DNA of 64,000 nucleotides. Source: Streptomyces sp. Go-475 (GTDB taxonomy: Bacteria; Actinomycetota; Actinomycetes; Streptomycetales; Streptomycetaceae). Location of the stretch: the NCBI RefSeq assembly GCF_003330845.1, contig NZ_CP026121.1:682001-746000 (forward strand), given 5' to 3'. How positions within the stretch are numbered: the first letter of the stretch is position 1; each line of letters opens with the position of its first letter. The notes beneath the pieces were generated by a model that worked only from the letters and a program-made list of their open reading frames with translations, was not told the DNA's origin and ran no database searches. The position numbers were made by a program, and so were the translations under genes. This document shows, piece after piece, positions 7,438 to 41,560 of the stretch.

Positions 7438-9087
7438 TCAGGTGTTGGCCGCGTAGTCCTTCGCGTACTCCTCGGCCATTCTGTCGCCGCCCCTGCTCCG
7501 CCACCTCTTCACCGCCGCGTCCCACTCGGACAGGGGCAGGCGCCCGGCGATGATCCCGGTGACGGTGTCGTCCAGGAACGTCTTGAGGGTGGCGCCCTGG
7601 GCGTTGTTCGTCGCGGACTGGAGCCCGAAGGAGGCGTCGCGTATGGCGTGCGGGACGACCTTCCGCTGCCAGGCGTGCAGGGCGCGCACGGCGTCGGGCA
7701 TGCCGGGGACGAACAGCACCTGGGGGCCTTCGGCGAGGTACTTCAGGGGCAGGTTGGTGTTGTTCTCGACCTCGCCGAGCGCGGTGGGTTCGGGCGAGCC
7801 GTCCTTGCCGCGGGTCAAGTGGACGCCCTCGACGCCGTAGTGGACGAGTTCCCACTCCTGACTGCCGAACGGCGCGGCGAGGTAGTCGAGGATGCGCAGC
7901 AGCAGTTCGACACACTCCTTCTTCGCCTGCTTCAGGACGGTGTAGCCGAAGGAGCGGCGGGCGGCGACGATGCCGCCGGGCTCACCGCCGACGCTGTAGG
8001 GCAGGGCCGCCGCCGGGGTCATCTTGCCTTGCGACTCGCGGTACTTGGGCAGGTAGGCGCCGAAGCCGTCCTGCATGGAGCCGACGGTGCCGTTGTAGTA
8101 GAGGGTCGTGAGGTCGATCTGCGAGATGGACGTGGCGTCGGGGTGGTAGGAGCCGTTCTTGCGCAGTCGGGCCTGGAAGGCGATGGCCGCCTTGTAGCGT
8201 TCGTCGGCGGCGCCGGGCAGGAAGGTGCCGTCCTTGGTGACGGCCCAGCGCTGGGGCGCGTTGTGGGCGGCGGAGTGGAAGGCGTTGCCGAACAGGGAGC
8301 CGTTGGCGGCGCCGAGCATGTAGGTCTTCCCGCGGGTTCCCCGCCTGGCCACGGCGGTGAAGTCCTCGGCCGTCCAGCCCTCCTTCATGCCCGCGTCGGC
8401 GAACATGTCCTGGTTGATCCACAGGGTCGAGCCGGGCAGCGGGCGTTCCAGCGGGATGCCGTAGATGCGTCCTCCGATGCGGCCCATGTCGCGCCAGGCG
8501 TGGGTGGGGATGCCCGCGAGGTTGGGGTAGTCGGTGATCGCGTCGCCCGACAGGTACGGCGTGAGGTCCTGGGCGCGGCGCCGCACGAACTGCGCCTCGC
8601 GGGGCAGGGTGAAGCCGGAGAACATGTTGATGATGTCGGGCAGGGCGTCGGCGTCGCCGGCCATGACGGTCGCCATCTTCTTCTGGTAGTCGGCCTGGGA
8701 GATGATCGTGTACTCGATCTTGACGCCGAGGGCCTTCTCCACGGCGGCCCAGAACCGGTTCTGCGCGGCGGGCTTGGGCGGGGTGCCGAAGGAGACGGTC
8801 ATGACGCGGACGGTGGAGCCGTCGCCCGGGGTGCGGGAGACCGACGTGACCAGGTCGGAGGGGTAGGAGGTGTAGCCGGCCTGGACACCGGAGTCGGTGG
8901 GCGCCAGGTCGGGCTCGGGCCCGGCGGCGGGCCGGTAGGCCGGCCAGGGGGCGAGCTTCTTCCCGGCGTTGGAGACGTCGCCGTCGCCGGATTCCGAGGA
9001 GCAGGCGGTCAGCAGACCGGGGACGGAGACGGCGGCACCGCCCGCCGCCATGGAGCGCAGGAGGGTGCGTCGGGACATGCGGGGCAT
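7438..9087 (-). CDS. Extracellular solute-binding lipoprotein of a sugar ABC transporter
   Basis: This 549-residue lipoprotein is the substrate receptor for the two permeases transcribed just before it. It starts with a Tat-like twin-arginine signal (SRRTLLRSM, arginines 6-7) and a lipobox ending at Cys29 (GLLTAC). The large size and the DITKYL-like region fit the LplA/AlgQ-type family of oligosaccharide-binding proteins rather than the smaller MalE type. The ATG at 9087 is chosen because it places the signal peptide at the N-terminus and has GAGGTGG upstream; the frame continues open upstream but has no signal there. No ATPase gene is in the operon, so a shared MsiK-type ATPase is likely. 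Confidence 0.9.
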   Translation of the reverse strand: MPRMSRRTLLRSMAAGGAAVSVPGLLTACSSESGDGDVSNAGKKLAPWPAYRPAAGPEPDLAPTDSGVQAGYTSYPSDLVTSVSRTPGDGSTVRVMTVSFGTPPKPAAQNRFWAAVEKALGVKIEYTIISQADYQKKMATVMAGDADALPDIINMFSGFTLPREAQFVRRRAQDLTPYLSGDAITDYPNLAGIPTHAWRDMGRIGGRIYGIPLERPLPGSTLWINQDMFADAGMKEGWTAEDFTAVARRGTRGKTYMLGAANGSLFGNAFHSAAHNAPQRWAVTKDGTFLPGAADERYKAAIAFQARLRKNGSYHPDATSISQIDLTTLYYNGTVGSMQDGFGAYLPKYRESQGKMTPAAALPYSVGGEPGGIVAARRSFGYTVLKQAKKECVELLLRILDYLAAPFGSQEWELVHYGVEGVHLTRGKDGSPEPTALGEVENNTNLPLKYLAEGPQVLFVPGMPDAVRALHAWQRKVVPHAIRDASFGLQSATNNAQGATLKTFLDDTVTGIIAGRLPLSEWDAAVKRWRSRGGDRMAEEYAKDYAANT

Positions 9088-33197: not shown

Positions 33198-33572
33198 ATG
33201 CGCACGAAGCTCGGCTCGGCCCTGGCGGCGACGGTCCTGGCGACCGGCCTGGGCGTCGCGATGGCGCCCAGCGCCTCCGCCGCCGACAACTGCTGGGCGG
33301 ACGGGGACGGCATCCGCTCCTGGTGCCGCAACGTGTCCGGCGCGGCGGTGTACGGATACATCGGCAACAACCGCATCTACCCCGACCCCACCAAGGTGGT
33401 CGGATACATGCACTCCAACCCCAGCTGGTTCTACTGCAAGCTGGACGGCCAGGCCTGGGTCGGCGGGCCGCACCCGACCCGCTGGCTGCTGACCGTGGCC
33501 GACAACGGCAAACTCGGCTACATGAAGGACACCGCGATCTACAGCGAGACCGATCCGGTGCGCAACTGCTGA
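33198..33572 (+). CDS. Small secreted protein with four cysteines, unknown function
   Basis: The product is 124 residues with a clear Sec signal peptide (MRTKLGSALAATVLATGLGV, cleavage after about residue 29). The mature part of about 95 residues has four cysteines (32, 43, 80, 124), so two disulfides are possible, and aromatic-rich beta-like stretches such as WFYCKLDGQAWVGGPHPTRW, reminiscent of small SH3-like secreted proteins. I do not recognise a named family. It has GGGGAG before the ATG and lies alone between two strong hairpins, so it is probably monocistronic. Confidence 0.75.
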   Translation: MRTKLGSALAATVLATGLGVAMAPSASAADNCWADGDGIRSWCRNVSGAAVYGYIGNNRIYPDPTKVVGYMHSNPSWFYCKLDGQAWVGGPHPTRWLLTVADNGKLGYMKDTAIYSETDPVRNC

Positions 33573-33588
33573 CCTCGGGTCGGCCCGT

Positions 33589-33631
33589 GACAGTGCCGCA
33601 GTCCGCCGAGGAGGCGGGCTGCGGCACTGTC
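33589..33631 (+). terminator. Long hairpin terminator after the small secreted protein
   Basis: A 19-bp stem (33589-33607 with 33613-33631), containing a single T-G wobble, closes a 5-nt loop 16 bases after the stop codon. It is one of the strongest hairpins in the window. Confidence 0.85.
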
Positions 33632-33696
33632 GTGTTCCGGCCGTCCGCGCGCCCCGCCGGGGGCCCCGCATGACATCCCGTCACCCGCACCCCTAT

Positions 33697-33718
33697 GCTT
33701 CTACATGCCTGTAGAAGC
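33697..33718. promoter_or_regulatory. BlaI-type operator upstream of spo0M
   Basis: GCTTCTACA and TGTAGAAGC form perfect 9-bp arms around a 4-bp spacer. The same TTCTACA-N4-TGTAGA core recurs at 36264-36279 between the BlaI gene and terD. The site ends 32 bp before the spo0M ATG. The TACA...TGTA core is typical of BlaI/MecI/CopY operators. Confidence 0.75.
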
Positions 33719-33750
33719 AAGTACACGCACGTGAAGGAGTGGACGCCACC

Positions 33751-34770
33751 ATGGTGTTCAAACGACTGCTCGGCGCGCTCGGTGTGGGCGGCCCCACGGT
33801 CGACACGGTTCTCGACCCGGCCCCCGTCCGCCCCGGCGGCACGCTCACCGGCCAGGTCCACCTGGCCGGCGGCAAAGCCGACTTCGACATCGAGCACATC
33901 ACCCTGGAGCTGGTGGCCCGGGTCGAGGCCGAGCACGACGGCGGTGAGAGCGAGGGCGTCGTGGCCTTCGACCGTTTCACCGTCGGCGGCGGCTTCCGGC
34001 TCGCCGAGGGCGAGCAGCGCAGCGTGCCGTTCAGCGTGACCGTGCCGTGGGAGACACCGGTCACGGAACTGCACGGCCAGAGCCTGGGCATCGTCCTCGG
34101 GGTGCGCACCGAGCTGTCGGTGGCGGGCGCGAAGGACAAGGGCGACCTGGACCAGCTGACCGTCGCGCCGCTGCCCGTGCAGGAGGCCGTGCTCGAAGCC
34201 CTCGGCGGGCTCGGGTTCGGTTTCCGGTCGGCCGACCTGGAGTACGGGCGCATCGGCGGCACGGGCCAGCGGCTGCCCTTCTACCAGGAGATCGAGCTCG
34301 TCCCCTCGCCCGCCTACGCGCAGCAGGTCAACGAGATCGAGCTGACGTTCCTGGCGAACCCGGGGGGCGTGGACGTGGTGCTGGAGGCGGACAAGCGGGG
34401 CGGCTTCCTGTCGCCGGGCCAGGACGCGCTCACCCGCTTCACCGTCTCCCACGAGGGGGTCGGGCAGCAGGACTGGCCGGCGATCGTCGACGGCTGGATG
34501 CGGCAGCTGGTCGCGCACCGGGCGTCGTACGGCTCCCCCACGGGCTACGCCGCCCCCTTGGGCCACGGCTCCCCCGCCGCGTTCGGCCCGGGCGGTCACG
34601 GGCACGACGCGCACCACCACGACGGCCACCGCTCCGGCCCGGGCATGGGCACCGCCGTCGCGGCGGGCGCGGCCGGACTCGCGGTCGGGGTCGTCGGCGG
34701 CATGGTCGCCGGCGAAGTCGTCGACGAGGTCGGGGACTTCTTCGAGGGCGAGGAGGACGAGGAGGGCTGA
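33751..34770 (+). CDS. spo0M: Spo0M-like sporulation-control protein
   Basis: This 339-residue cytoplasmic protein has an arrestin-like Spo0M domain over about residues 1-240, starting MVFKRLLGALGVGGPTVDTV and continuing with GGTLTGQVHLAGG and SVPFSVTVPWETPVT. In Bacillus Spo0M influences sporulation; its role in Streptomyces is less clear. After the domain comes a His/Gly-rich stretch (about 260-295) and then a Gly/Ala/Val hydrophobic segment and an acidic tail, FFEGEEDEEG, which is not part of the basic fold. The ATG at 33751 is used; GTG at 33739 overlaps the GGAG. A BlaI-type palindrome precedes it. Confidence 0.88.
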   Translation: MVFKRLLGALGVGGPTVDTVLDPAPVRPGGTLTGQVHLAGGKADFDIEHITLELVARVEAEHDGGESEGVVAFDRFTVGGGFRLAEGEQRSVPFSVTVPWETPVTELHGQSLGIVLGVRTELSVAGAKDKGDLDQLTVAPLPVQEAVLEALGGLGFGFRSADLEYGRIGGTGQRLPFYQEIELVPSPAYAQQVNEIELTFLANPGGVDVVLEADKRGGFLSPGQDALTRFTVSHEGVGQQDWPAIVDGWMRQLVAHRASYGSPTGYAAPLGHGSPAAFGPGGHGHDAHHHDGHRSGPGMGTAVAAGAAGLAVGVVGGMVAGEVVDEVGDFFEGEEDEEG

Positions 34771-34789
34771 CGCCGCAGGGGCGGGGCCC

Positions 34790-35794
34790 TCACAGGGGCG
34801 TGGCCGCGTGCAGGATGAGCACCATCGTCACGGCCGAGTTCGCGGAGGACATCGCCGACACGGCCGTTCCCGCGGCCGCGCCCCAGGCCGCCAGGCCGAC
34901 GGAGGTGAACGCCGGGGGCCAGGTGCGCACGGCCGGTGCCGGGCCGAGGAGCGCCGCCACGCGGCGGGGCACCGGCCCCGGCGCGGCGAGTCCCGCGAGC
35001 GTGGACACCGGGGTGCCCCGGGAGACGAGAGCGGCCGTGCCGATGGCGCGTGCCACCGTGCGGCGGCTGCCGATCGCCCGGGCCGCCTCCTCGTCGGCCC
35101 ACCGCTCGGCCGTGTACGCCACGGCGGTGCGCAGCGGCCGCAGGAACGGGTTGGCCCGGGCGGCGAGCTGCACGGCGAGCAGGAACCGGTCGTGCCGGGC
35201 GTCGAGGTGCGCCCGCTCATGGGCGAACAGCGCCCGCCGCTCGGCCGCCCCGAGCCGGTCCAGCAGGGCCGTACTCACCACGACACGCCCCCCACGCGGG
35301 CCCCGGGCGCGGCGGCCGGCCCTGCCGCGCGGAGCACCCTCGCCGGTACGCCCGCCGCCGTTCCGCCCACCGCCGGGCAGCGCGTACGCGTAGGGGACGC
35401 CGTCGGGCAGGACGGCGACCTCGGTGTCCGGCAGGCCGGTCAGGGCGCGGTGGGCCTGGCGGCGCACCCGGGCGTGCCGCCACAGCGTCCGGGCGCAGGC
35501 GGCGACCACCGCGCACAGGGCGGGAATGGCGGCCTTGCCGACGACCTCGTCGTACGGCACCGCCGCCCGTACCTCGGGGTCCGACCAGCCGTCCGGCAGC
35601 GGGTTGCCGGGCAGCTGGGCGGTGCCGACCACCATCACCAGCCCCAGGCACACGGTGCTGCACAGCGCCAGCACCACCGCCAGCACGGTGAGCAGCCGGG
35701 TCGCGGTACGCGGATGCAGATGCTGCTCGGCCAGGCGCGCGACCGGCCAGGCCGTGAGCGGCAGCACCAGCGGAAGAAAGACGAACACCCCCAT
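34790..35794 (-). CDS. M56 family membrane metallopeptidase (BlaR1-like)
   Basis: This 334-residue membrane protein has the zinc-peptidase motif HERAH (His192, Glu193, His196) in FAHERAHLDARHD, and predicted helices at about residues 3-18, 33-60 and 85-105 and near the C-terminus. BlaR1-type M56 proteins sense a signal and cleave their partner BlaI repressor, which relieves repression. It has no penicillin-binding sensor domain, so its signal is not known to be a beta-lactam. It lies 6 bp after the BlaI gene, the usual pair order. Confidence 0.88.
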   Translation of the reverse strand: MGVFVFLPLVLPLTAWPVARLAEQHLHPRTATRLLTVLAVVLALCSTVCLGLVMVVGTAQLPGNPLPDGWSDPEVRAAVPYDEVVGKAAIPALCAVVAACARTLWRHARVRRQAHRALTGLPDTEVAVLPDGVPYAYALPGGGRNGGGRTGEGAPRGRAGRRARGPRGGRVVVSTALLDRLGAAERRALFAHERAHLDARHDRFLLAVQLAARANPFLRPLRTAVAYTAERWADEEAARAIGSRRTVARAIGTAALVSRGTPVSTLAGLAAPGPVPRRVAALLGPAPAVRTWPPAFTSVGLAAWGAAAGTAVSAMSSANSAVTMVLILHAATPL

Positions 35795-35800
35795 GAGGCT

Positions 35801-36187
35801 TCAGTCTTCCCCCTCGCCGTGGGCCTGATCCAGCAGGTCGCGCAGCAGTCGCTCGTCGTCCGGGTCGAGGCCGGTGACGAAGCTGGCCAGCACGGCCCCG
35901 CGGTCGTTCTCGGCGTCCAGCACCTTGCGCATCTTGCGGGCGGCCAGGCCCGCCTGGTCCGAGGCGGGCGTCCAGGCGAAGGACCGGCCGACCCGCTCCC
36001 GGGTCACCGCGCCCTTGCCCAGCAGCCGGGTGAGGATCGTGATCACCGTCGTGTACGCGAGGTCGCCGCCAAGACGTTCCTGCACCCAGCCGGCCGTGGC
36101 CGGACCGTCCGCCTCCCGCAGTGCCGACAGCACCAGCGCCTCCAGCTCGCCCTGTCCCCGCCGGGGACGCTGCCGGGGATCCGTCAC
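35801..36187 (-). CDS. BlaI/MecI/CopY family repressor
   Basis: This 128-residue winged-helix repressor shows the family pattern GELEALVLSALREADGPATA (about residues 11-30), then VQERLGGDLAYTTVITILTR, the recognition helix, and a C-terminal dimerisation helix region AENDRGAVLASFVTGLDPDD, where BlaR-type peptidases cut. The GTG at 36187 has GGGAGG upstream; the frame extends further upstream but would run through the operator. It is co-transcribed with the M56 peptidase and is divergent from terD, with a palindromic operator between. Confidence 0.92.
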   Translation of the reverse strand: MTDPRQRPRRGQGELEALVLSALREADGPATAGWVQERLGGDLAYTTVITILTRLLGKGAVTRERVGRSFAWTPASDQAGLAARKMRKVLDAENDRGAVLASFVTGLDPDDERLLRDLLDQAHGEGED

Positions 36188-36263
36188 CGCCCTGCCTCCC
36201 TTCCGCCGCCCTTCGGCGCCCGTGCGGACATCGTATAGATCCGCCGGACCGGAACCCGGATCT

Positions 36264-36279
36264 TCTACAGTGCTGTAGA
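36264..36279. promoter_or_regulatory. BlaI-type operator between blaI-like and terD genes
   Basis: TCTACAG and CTGTAGA are perfect 7-bp arms around TG, so the site reads TCTACA-N4-TGTAGA, the same architecture as the site before spo0M. It lies 77-92 bp before the blaI-like start and 37-52 bp before the terD start, so it can control both. Confidence 0.8.
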
Positions 36280-36315
36280 TTTTAAGGGACCGCACTCGTC
36301 AAGAAGGAGTACCTC

Positions 36316-36891
36316 GTGGGAGTTTCCCTGTCCAAGGGTGGCAACGTCTCGCTCAGCAAGGAGGCGCCGGGCCTCACCGCGGTCCTGGTCGGCCTGGGCT
36401 GGGACGTCCGCACGACCACCGGCACCGACTACGACCTCGACGCCTCCGCCCTCCTCCTCGACGCCTCCGGCAAGGTCCCCTCGGACGAGCACTTCGTCTT
36501 CTACAACAACCTGAGGAGCCCGGACGGCTCGGTCGAGCACACCGGCGACAACCTCACCGGCGAGGGCGAGGGCGACGACGAGAGCGTCAAGGTGAACCTC
36601 GCCGCCGTGCCCGCCGGGATCGACAGGATCGTGTTCCCGGTCTCCATCCACGACGCCGAGAACCGCGGCCAGAGCTTCGGGCAGGTCCGCAACGCCTTCA
36701 TCCGGGTCGTCAACCAGGCGGGCGGTCAGGAGATCGCCCGCTACGACCTGTCCGAGGACGCCTCCACGGAGACCGCGATGGTCTTCGGCGAGCTGTACCG
36801 GCACGGCGCCGAGTGGAAGTTCCGGGCCGTCGGCCAGGGATACGCCTCCGGCCTGGCCGGGATCGCGTCCGACTTCGGTGTGAACGTCTGA
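36316..36891 (+). CDS. TerD family stress protein
   Basis: This 191-residue calcium-binding stress protein of the tellurite-resistance TerD family has the signature order [20 protein letters not shown], then [42 protein letters not shown] and [12 protein letters not shown]. The aspartates in DYDLDAS and GDN correspond to calcium ligands of the family. The GTG at 36316 has AAGGAG upstream. Control by the adjacent BlaI-type operator would link it to the BlaI/M56 system and to spo0M. Confidence 0.93.
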
Positions 36892-36972: not shown

Positions 36973-37638
36973 GTGGCCCTACCGTCCCGCCTCAGCCCCG
37001 AGGACCGCGCCGACTTCGAAGCCGTACTGCACCTCGCGATGAGCAGCGCGGAGATCCGCGGCGCTCTGCGCCCCGACCCGACCGGCCGGGCCGCCGCGCA
37101 CCTGCGCGCCCACGCGCTCGACCACGCCGACGCCATCACCGCGGCGGCCGGCGAGCCGTACCGGACCTATCTCGCCGTACGGCGGGCGGCCCGGCGGGAG
37201 ACGCCGCCTCCGCTCGGCTCGGGCAGCCTGCTGCCGGCCCTCGCGGTGCTCACCCCGCTCGTGTCGGCCGTCTCCGCCGGGGCGCTGCTGCTGCTCGGCG
37301 GCCTGCTCCAGGTGGCCGGCGCGCCGGGCCCGCTGCCCGGCTCGCTCGTCGCGGCCGGCTGGACCCTGGCGCTCGTGGCGGCCGTGACCGGCCTCGTCGC
37401 CCTGGCCGCGGTGCTGCGTACGGCCCTGGGCAGACCCGCCGTCCCACCGGCCCCCGACCAGGTGGAGCACGCCCGGCAGGCCTGGCGGCAGGCGCTGCTC
37501 GACCACGGCATGCTGCCCCACCTGCGCCGGCACCTGACCCCGTACCCCGAGGCGGCGGTCACGCCGTGCTCCCCGCCCGATACGCTCGCGCCGTGCCCGG
37601 CCCGGGCCGGAAAGGACAGGACACCATGTTCGGACTGA
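36973..37638 (+). CDS. Putative membrane protein of unknown function upstream of tatA
   Basis: The product is 221 residues. A soluble N-terminal part (about 1-75, helical, SPEDRADFEAVLHLAMSSAE) is followed by two hydrophobic segments at about residues 84-115 (LLPALAVLTPLVSAVSAGAL then LLLLGGLLQVAG) and 122-150. A C-terminal tail with HARQAWRQALLDHG follows. I do not recognise a family. The GTG at 36973 is preceded by GGGAG. Its 3' end overlaps the tatA gene by 13 bp in another frame, so the two are probably translated in a coupled way. Confidence 0.7.
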   Translation: MALPSRLSPEDRADFEAVLHLAMSSAEIRGALRPDPTGRAAAHLRAHALDHADAITAAAGEPYRTYLAVRRAARRETPPPLGSGSLLPALAVLTPLVSAVSAGALLLLGGLLQVAGAPGPLPGSLVAAGWTLALVAAVTGLVALAAVLRTALGRPAVPPAPDQVEHARQAWRQALLDHGMLPHLRRHLTPYPEAAVTPCSPPDTLAPCPARAGKDRTPCSD

Positions 37639-37877
37639 GCGAGCTCGCGATCATCCTCATCGTCGTCATAGCCGTCCTCGCGGCCAAGAAGCTGCCCGAG
37701 CTGGCCCGCTCGGCCGGCAAGTCGGCGCGCATCCTCAAGGCCGAGGCCCGCGCCGCACGCGACGAGGAGGCGGGCACGGCCCCCGCGCCGCGGGTGCTCC
37801 AGGGCGAGACCGTCCCGCCGGGCTCCGGCCCGACCCCGCCCGGCGCCCGTGCGGCGGACGCCCCGGACCACCGCTGA
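37626..37877 (+). CDS. tatA: Twin-arginine translocase subunit TatA/TatE
   Basis: This 83-residue protein has one N-terminal membrane helix (MFGLSELAIILIVVIAVLAA), an amphipathic helix with KKLPELARSAGKSARILKAE (about residues 21-40) and a charged, Pro/Ala-rich tail. The FG..E and LPELARS motifs are typical of TatA/E. The usual Streptomyces tatA is elsewhere beside tatC, so this is probably an additional paralogue. Its last codons, PDHR and stop, are the seed of the tandem repeats that follow. Confidence 0.88.
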   Translation: MFGLSELAIILIVVIAVLAAKKLPELARSAGKSARILKAEARAARDEEAGTAPAPRVLQGETVPPGSGPTPPGARAADAPDHR

Positions 37878-38412
37878 CCCGCACCCGGACGACCGCTGAT
37901 CCGCCCCGGATCACGGCTGGCCCGCCCCCAGGACCACCGCCGGCCCGCCCCGGACGACCGCCGGCCCGCGCCCGGACCACCGCTGATCTGTCCCCGGACG
38001 ACCGCCGACCCGCCTCCGGACCACCGCCGACGTCCCCGGACCACCGCTGACCCGTGCCCAGCGGCCGCCGGCCCGCCCCCGGACCACCGCTGACCCCCGC
38101 CCGGACGACCGCCGGCCCGCCCCCGGACCACCGCCGACGTCCACGGACCACCGCCGACCCGTGCCCATGCGGCCGCCGGCCCGCCCCCGGACCACCGCCG
38201 ACGTCCACGGACCACCGCCGACGTCCCCAGACCACCGCCGACCCGTGCCCATGCGGCCGCCGGCCCGCCCCCGGACCACCGCCGCCGTCCACGGACCACC
38301 GCCGCCGTCCCCAGACCACCGCCGACCCGTGCCCATGCGGCCGCCGGCCCGCCCCCGGACGGCCGCTGATCCGTCCCCGGATCACGGCTGGCCCGCCTCC
38401 CGGACGACCGCT
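37864..38412 (+). repeat. Tandem repeat array grown from the tatA 3' end
   Basis: The 548-bp gap between tatA and htpG is filled with repeats. A short unit, CCGGACCACCGCTGA or CCGGACCACCGCCGAC, occurs at least twelve times; its first copy is the last codons and stop of tatA (37864-37877). From 38161 a longer unit repeats with an exact 84-bp period: GTGCCCATGCGGCCGCCGG starts at 38161, 38245 and 38329, with a related earlier copy at 38054. No gene is supported here; open frames are low-complexity by-products of the 3-fold period. Confidence 0.93.
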
Positions 38413-38425
38413 GTCCGTCCCCCGG

Positions 38426-41152: not shown

Positions 41153-41560
41153 CACCTCACTCGGGCACGGCAGCGGGAACGGACACGGGCACGAACGCGG
41201 CACGCGGGGCACGGACGCGGACCGGGGCACTCGGGGCACGGACGCGGACCGGGGCACTCGGGGCACGGACGCGGCACGCGGCACGCGGCACGGCACGGGG
41301 GCACGGACGTGGCACGCCGCACGGCACGCGGGCACTGCCACGGGCACGGACGCGGCACGCGGCACGCGGCACGCGGCACGCGGCACGGCACGGGGGCACG
41401 GACGTGGCACGCCGCACGGCACGCGGGCACTGCCACGGGCACGGACGCGGCACGCGGCACGCGGCACGCGGCCCAGCACGCGGGCACAGCACGCGGCACA
41501 GCACGCGGGCACAGACGCGACACGCGGGCACGGCACGGGCACGGACATGGCGCGGCACGC
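41153..41560 (+). repeat. GGCACG-rich repeat array between sortase and substrate genes
   Basis: The 489-bp gap contains low-complexity runs of CGCGGCA and GGGCACGGACG. A 27-bp unit around cggggcactcggggcacg is doubled near 41221-41275. A unit of about 95 bp is tandemly duplicated, the first copy starting at 41291 and the second at 41386. No gene is supported in either strand; the open frames there are artefacts of base composition. Confidence 0.9.

Follow-up and report, generated by a model that had tools for sequence, protein, structure and literature searches.

A 64,000-nucleotide stretch of the Streptomyces sp. Go-475 genome (contig NZ_CP026121.1, positions 682,001 to 746,000; hereafter the window) carries two copies of the palindrome TCTACA-N4-TGTAGA, one upstream of spo0M and one between the divergent genes terD and blaI. 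Judged from sequence, this palindrome is very likely the operator of the adjacent BlaI-type repressor, which would control a set of stress and membrane genes together with a BlaR1-like protease that lacks the sensor. The assignment is based on the sites themselves, their genome-wide rarity, their conservation, the genes associated with them, their co-occurrence with a BlaI clade, the abutment of the spo0M promoter, and the catalytic motif and BlaR1-like model of the protease; from these we infer that BlaI binds and represses, that it is cleaved, and what the signal and physiological role would be. The features concerned, in window coordinates, are as follows.

33670-33699, plus strand: spo0M promoter-like sequence ATGACA-N18-TATGCT, whose -10 box ends directly before the core of operator 1 (33700).
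33697-33718 (core 33700-33715), plus strand: putative operator 1, GCTTCTACATGCCTGTAGAAGC, a 22-bp palindrome GCTTCTACA-TGCC-TGTAGAAGC upstream of spo0M.
33751-34770, plus strand: spo0M (PF07070, 266 bits, E 2.4e-79).
34790-35794, minus strand: BlaR1-like membrane zinc protease (M56/M48-like), with HExxH at residues 192-196 and E230 in ERWADE.
35801-36187, minus strand: blaI, Penicillinase_R repressor (PF03965, 85.7 bits against a cut-off of 22.6, E 3.8e-24).
36264-36279, plus strand: putative operator 2, TCTACAGTGCTGTAGA, between the divergent terD and blaI.
36276-36281, plus strand: candidate terD -10 box TAGATT, sharing bases with the right arm of operator 2.
36316-36891, plus strand: terD (PF02342, 294 bits, E 4.9e-88).
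36973-37638, plus strand: uncharacterized gene, named DUF36973 here, for a membrane protein by eye, with no Pfam match.
37626-37877, plus strand: TatA/E-like gene (PF02416, 42.2 bits), overlapping the end of DUF36973 (37626 versus 37638).

An earlier note on this DNA had placed the palindromes 32 and 36 bp before the starts of spo0M and terD, and both proved exact: operator 1 ends 32 bp 5′ of the spo0M ATG (33751) and operator 2 ends 36 bp 5′ of the terD GTG (36316). The second site, which the note had assigned to terD, is not a terD site alone, as it likewise lies upstream of blaI, 76 bp from the probable GTG start at 36187 (a start placed from relatives). With up to two mismatches allowed, the window contained these two sites only, both exact, compared with a mean of 0.23 in 100 shuffles, three of which reached two sites. 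The exact pattern occurs at just two places in the 8,570,609-bp genome, operators 1 and 2, which are separated by 2.56 kb, and the reversed control pattern had no occurrence in the whole source genome. At up to two mismatches, 40 places were found genome-wide versus 24 for the control, so that only the near-exact class stands out; it includes three one-mismatch sites, at 4605067 and 4605086 (19 bp apart) and at 6578605. Both window sites have a 4-bp spacer, and the arms TCTACA/TGTAGA are the same there and in relatives. A chance palindrome is ruled out by the shuffles, the genome-wide rarity, and the conservation in Streptomyces. A terminator was also rejected: the search of 33560-36330 gave two terminator-like sites, and neither palindrome is one of them.

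Conservation in related genomes, which the earlier note had set as one of its tests, was found, and the sites track the BlaI gene. The exact pattern was present in 126/199 Streptomyces genomes, with 333 copies compared to six of the control. When these genomes were binned by best-match exponent against the window BlaI, the site was present in 41/43 (exponent of 55 or more), 63/77 (40-54), 17/23 (30-39), 4/12 (20-29), 0/2 (12-19), and 1/42 (under 12); the Fisher value of 4e-24 for this co-occurrence overstates independence because the species are related. A scan of 396 genomes across the phylum matched 19, comprising 9/12 Streptomyces and 10/384 others, and the latter do not exceed the background of 9/384 obtained with the control pattern. 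Among 12 genomes of the same order outside the genus, four had one to four N4 copies (G202, G206, G207, and G209). At the level of individual BlaI loci (80 of 390 confirmed), 61 exact and two one-mismatch sites were located upstream of BlaI, and the best upstream match at the other 17 had four to six mismatches, as in control stretches. Seven loci have two sites between terD and blaI, one by each gene, the two genes being ∼570 to 630 bp apart in four of the seven.

The genes that follow the operator were assigned by BLAST against reference proteins (frame filter, third-position GC content of 0.80), the references for rare families coming from the same loci. The 192 distinct collected sites combine BlaI-anchored and genome-wide loci and are biased to BlaI; the genome-wide subset of 79 consists of part of the 333 copies (one per genome for some) and the source genome's two. 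A recognized gene lay within 300 bp downstream, on either side, of 189/192 sites: BlaI at 86, TerD 70, TerB 36, TatA-like 25, Spo0M 18, LCP 9, DUF36973 8, transglycosylase-associated 7, ion channel and CBS/CorC-like 6 each, an 83-amino-acid (aa) protein and acyltransferase 5 each, M56 4, DedA 3, and PAP2 (two types), a penicillin-binding protein (PBP)-like protein, and DUF347 1 each. Of the 79 genome-wide sites, 76 had a recognized gene (74 if two sites whose sole match is their own singleton are excluded), namely, BlaI at 25, TerD 24, TerB 18, TatA-like 8, Spo0M 6, the 83-aa protein 5, DUF36973, ion channel, CBS/CorC, LCP, and transglycosylase-associated 3 each, DedA and acyltransferase 2 each, and others 1. 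BlaI is thus the commonest gene directly downstream in both sets. Pfam searches on representatives returned TerB, TatA_B_E, LytR_cpsA_psr, Acyl_transf_3, Ion_trans, Transgly_assoc, VTT/DedA, PAP2 (for one of the two types), and DUF347; CBS/CorC, the second PAP2 type, and the PBP-like protein were named by eye. Sites can lie far from BlaI: among the matches listed, the transglycosylase-associated, ion-channel, and TerB sites of G190 are on other contigs than BlaI, and the TerB and Spo0M sites of G096 are ∼3.9 and 4.2 Mb from it.

These associations support the earlier proposal of a BlaI regulon linking Spo0M and TerD but widen it to blaI itself, TerB, TatA-like, LCP, DedA, PAP2, and other membrane and stress genes. 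They also agree with the proposal that this would not be a beta-lactamase regulon, in that neither beta-lactamase nor PBP2a is among the families recognized at the 189 sites, beta-lactamases not having been searched by name. The 83-aa protein, which has no Pfam match, directly follows the operator in L019, L027, L149, L151, and L185 and is a candidate regulon member. In the source genome, the one-mismatch site G000:C1:6578605-6578620 (L005, L162) lies ∼160 bp before a CBS/CorC-like gene, a possible third target whose relatives' copies have exact sites. The spacer is GTGN in most of 66 TerD sites (77, 91, and 82% at the GTG positions), mostly TGC at Spo0M sites, and variable at TerB sites, a pattern that may reflect shared ancestry.

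In 33560-36330, a sigma70-like match was found solely at the spo0M promoter-like element (shuffle mean, 0.0), and TATGCT, TATACT, or TATATT stands directly 5′ of TCTACA in 17/18 Spo0M-associated sites, with TAGACT in the remaining one. The same search reported no sigma70-type promoter at terD. TAGATT may nevertheless be the terD -10 box, as the TT after the right arm is kept at 91 to 92% in the 66 TerD sites and at 83 to 89% in 18 TatA sites (both sets being based on gene assignment by clusters). The genes terD, DUF36973, and tatA-like run in the same direction, and the latter two are probable operon partners of terD. The operator is directly 5′ of a DUF36973 homolog at 8/192 sites and of a TatA-like homolog at 25/192; among 40 BlaI loci with a close TerD, a DUF36973 homolog is next in 21, a TatA-like gene is downstream in 18, and neither is found in 16. 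The spo0M gene is the only Spo0M match in the source genome.

The membrane protease had been described as an M56 peptidase without a penicillin sensor. Its 334 residues end three residues after the last helix (294-331), leaving no room for a C-terminal penicillin-binding sensor domain, and the predicted model appears to resemble the membrane and zinc domains of BlaR1, with no Foldseek match at E ≤ 0.001. The family label holds less well, because only M48 passes in Pfam (51.1 bits) and M56 (PF05569) falls below threshold (17.9 versus a cut-off of 31). HExxH is present in 97/98 full-length homologs and in 103/112 of all those collected, and H192, E193, H196, and E230 are invariant in 49 aligned homologs. 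BlaI, in turn, is the only regulator recognized in the stretch, as claimed previously, but the source genome has three BlaI-type matches. The closest solved structure to the window BlaI is 2g9w (profile E 1.1e-18), which we take to be Mycobacterium tuberculosis BlaI (Rv1846c).

The components belong to known families. What differs from the BlaI systems that we found is the spacing of the operator, the set of targets, and the lack of a sensor in the protease. As in Staphylococcus aureus BlaI-BlaR1 and MecI-MecR1, a BlaI-family repressor is encoded beside a membrane zinc protease and the half-sites are TACA/TGTA; the BlaI profile matches 2g9w, MecI, and penicillinase-repressor chains, and the protease appears to resemble the BlaR1 membrane and zinc domains. 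Unlike BlaR1, the window protease does not carry a penicillin sensor at its C terminus; neither beta-lactamase nor PBP2a genes are recognized at the sites, and the S. aureus half-sites are separated by N2, as in TACANNTGTA, rather than N4. M. tuberculosis BlaI is likewise an actinobacterial BlaI with targets beyond beta-lactamase, e.g., ftsQ and Rv1303, although those named in the portion consulted of PMC12565901 do not include TerD, TerB, Spo0M, or DedA. The CopR/CopY copper repressors form a related family with TACA/TGTA arms (PMC7253601), but the window BlaI has no cysteine and hence no C-terminal CXC metal motif, no copper genes are recognized at the sites, and the spacer is N4. LCP proteins and PBPs also belong to the sigmaE envelope regulon of Streptomyces coelicolor (PMC6767563); the main text of that paper contains none of the terms BlaI, TerD, tellur, Spo0M, and DedA.

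Another system with shared targets is the sigmaW regulon of Bacillus subtilis. The yceC-E products are TerD-like, and sigmaW is released by membrane proteolysis. The sigmaW regulon includes spo0M as a core member and yceC-H, the latter also under sigmaB and sigmaM (PMC3498285), and a spo0M null mutant has membrane and cell-shape defects (PMC5325327). The control differs, with an extracytoplasmic function sigma factor and anti-sigma factor there and a repressor and protease here, and no homology is claimed. That Spo0M and TerD proteins are common to two unrelated control systems supports a role in the envelope. The sporulation framing of the earlier note is recast here as envelope stress.

A published alternative is that the palindrome before terD acts in RNA as an iron-responsive element (IRE) bound by apo-aconitase, as predicted for SSQG_00725, a tellurium resistance protein of Streptomyces viridochromogenes (strain Tu494), with a CAGUG loop on the 5′ side at 64 bp (PMC3912134, Table 1). 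At the corresponding S. viridochromogenes DSM 40736 locus (L050, operator at 7913-7928), the palindrome contains a CAGTG whose end lies 64 bp 5′ of the terD start, equal to the published distance, and the GTG of the spacer is conserved in the TerD sites, as described above. The SSQG tags belong to DSM 40736. The published strain is Tu494, and it is very probable rather than proven that SSQG_00725 is the terD ortholog in L050. An IRE is defined by a hairpin with a CAGUGN loop. At minimum energy, the terD copy folds into a weak hairpin (-4.5 kcal/mol) whose 6-bp stem closes the loop GUGC, not CAGUG. The same arms precede the divergent blaI and many unrelated genes with differing spacers, the presence of the site follows a BlaI gene, and operator 1 abuts the probable spo0M -10 box, so that the transcript would probably not include the complete palindrome. 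We consider the IRE highly improbable as an explanation of the site.

It is also improbable that another regulator, such as a paralogous BlaI, binds the site and that its position beside the window blaI is incidental or reflects cross-regulation. Paralogs exist in the source genome, and the two one-mismatch variants at a second locus (L161) make cross-binding likely, but the site is absent from 41/42 genomes in which the best BlaI match is remote (exponent under 12), and BlaI is the commonest gene directly after it. A less improbable but still unlikely reading accepts the BlaI regulon and assigns it to redox, metal, or osmotic stress instead of the cell envelope. TerD and TerB are named for tellurite, and SSQG_00725, very probably the terD ortholog, increased 1.62-fold (p 0.05) with methyl viologen (PMC3912134). 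The targets, however, include LCP, DedA, PAP2, acyltransferase, and ion-channel genes, spo0M and yceC-H are in the sigmaW set of B. subtilis, and a CopY-type metal switch is ruled out by the lack of cysteine in BlaI. Some observations weigh against assignment of the palindrome to the adjacent BlaI: terD and blaI are more than 300 bp apart in L083 and L088 yet have a single site, L091 has a site at terD and none at blaI, and Spo0M is a less widespread member than TerD, a rarity that slightly lowers our confidence in the best explanation.

Assuming that the palindrome is the BlaI operator, a BlaI dimer on operator 1 would cover the spo0M transcription start, and BlaI on operator 2 would block terD-DUF36973-tatA and repress blaI-M56. 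The protease, having no penicillin sensor, would probably use its membrane helices or a short outer loop to sense damage to the envelope or membrane and then bring about BlaI inactivation. The gene set would be induced and would act in envelope and membrane stress. Envelope stress is the leading but unproven candidate for the signal.

A sister regulon is probably present at a second locus of the source genome. At G000:C1:4598000-4612000 (L161), DedA-PAP2-PAP2 is divergent from BlaI-M56-DUF347, with two one-mismatch sites between them. PAP2 proteins are linked to recycling of the undecaprenyl carrier, which is the probable role of this set. The DedA family includes undecaprenyl-phosphate transporters (PMC11474028, PMC12893004). 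In same-order genomes, N4 sites precede DedA and PAP2 genes in L177, L178, L180, L182, and L183, with BlaI present in L177, L178, L180, and L183 and M56 in L178, L180, and L183; L175 has DedA and M56, and no DedA, PAP2, BlaI, or M56 gene was found at the sites of L176 and L179.

Other repeats were also observed. Tandem TCTACA-N2-TGTAGA sites occur in the source genome at G000:C1:8082918-8082965 (L174; copies at 8082918 and 8082952), and in relatives (L188, L189, and L191-L193) N2 sites lie between genes for a TetR-type regulator and a flavin adenine dinucleotide-dependent monooxygenase (names by eye). On account of this context, the N2 sites were set aside from the regulon as what appears from sequence to be a separate conserved operator. 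In the window, a C-rich tandem array (37861-38425; units of 22, 64, 84, and 107 bp) occupies the space from the tatA-like gene to its minus-strand neighbor, which is HtpG-like by eye. A long degenerate GC-rich tandem array at 41164-41546, including a perfect 95-bp repeat (2.1 copies), lies inside the 5′ portion of reading frames that look sortase-like by eye.

No description of the regulon, and no role for sensor-less BlaI/M56 pairs in Streptomyces, was found in a search of open-access literature listings; PMC8265638 contains no mention of the motif under the terms searched. Tentatively, and with somewhat less than even confidence, we suggest a Streptomyces envelope-stress response in which BlaI repressors of one family, each with its own sensor-less BlaR1-like protease that reads the membrane state directly, act through a 4-bp-spaced operator. 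It would control TerD/TerB, Spo0M, TatA-like, and LCP proteins and, in sister loci, DedA/PAP2 undecaprenyl-carrier recycling, as an independent, repressor-based counterpart of the Bacillus sigmaW response, and the published aconitase IRE before terD would really be this operator. For one BlaI/M56 clade, there is now an operator that can be tested, along with a list of targets and a candidate class of signal, and TerD, TerB, and Spo0M, all of poorly understood function, gain a common regulator. An alternative is also offered to the published posttranscriptional reading of the terD leader. Should the proteases indeed respond to the membrane state or to the undecaprenyl carrier, this would reveal how BlaR1-type proteases operate without a drug sensor.

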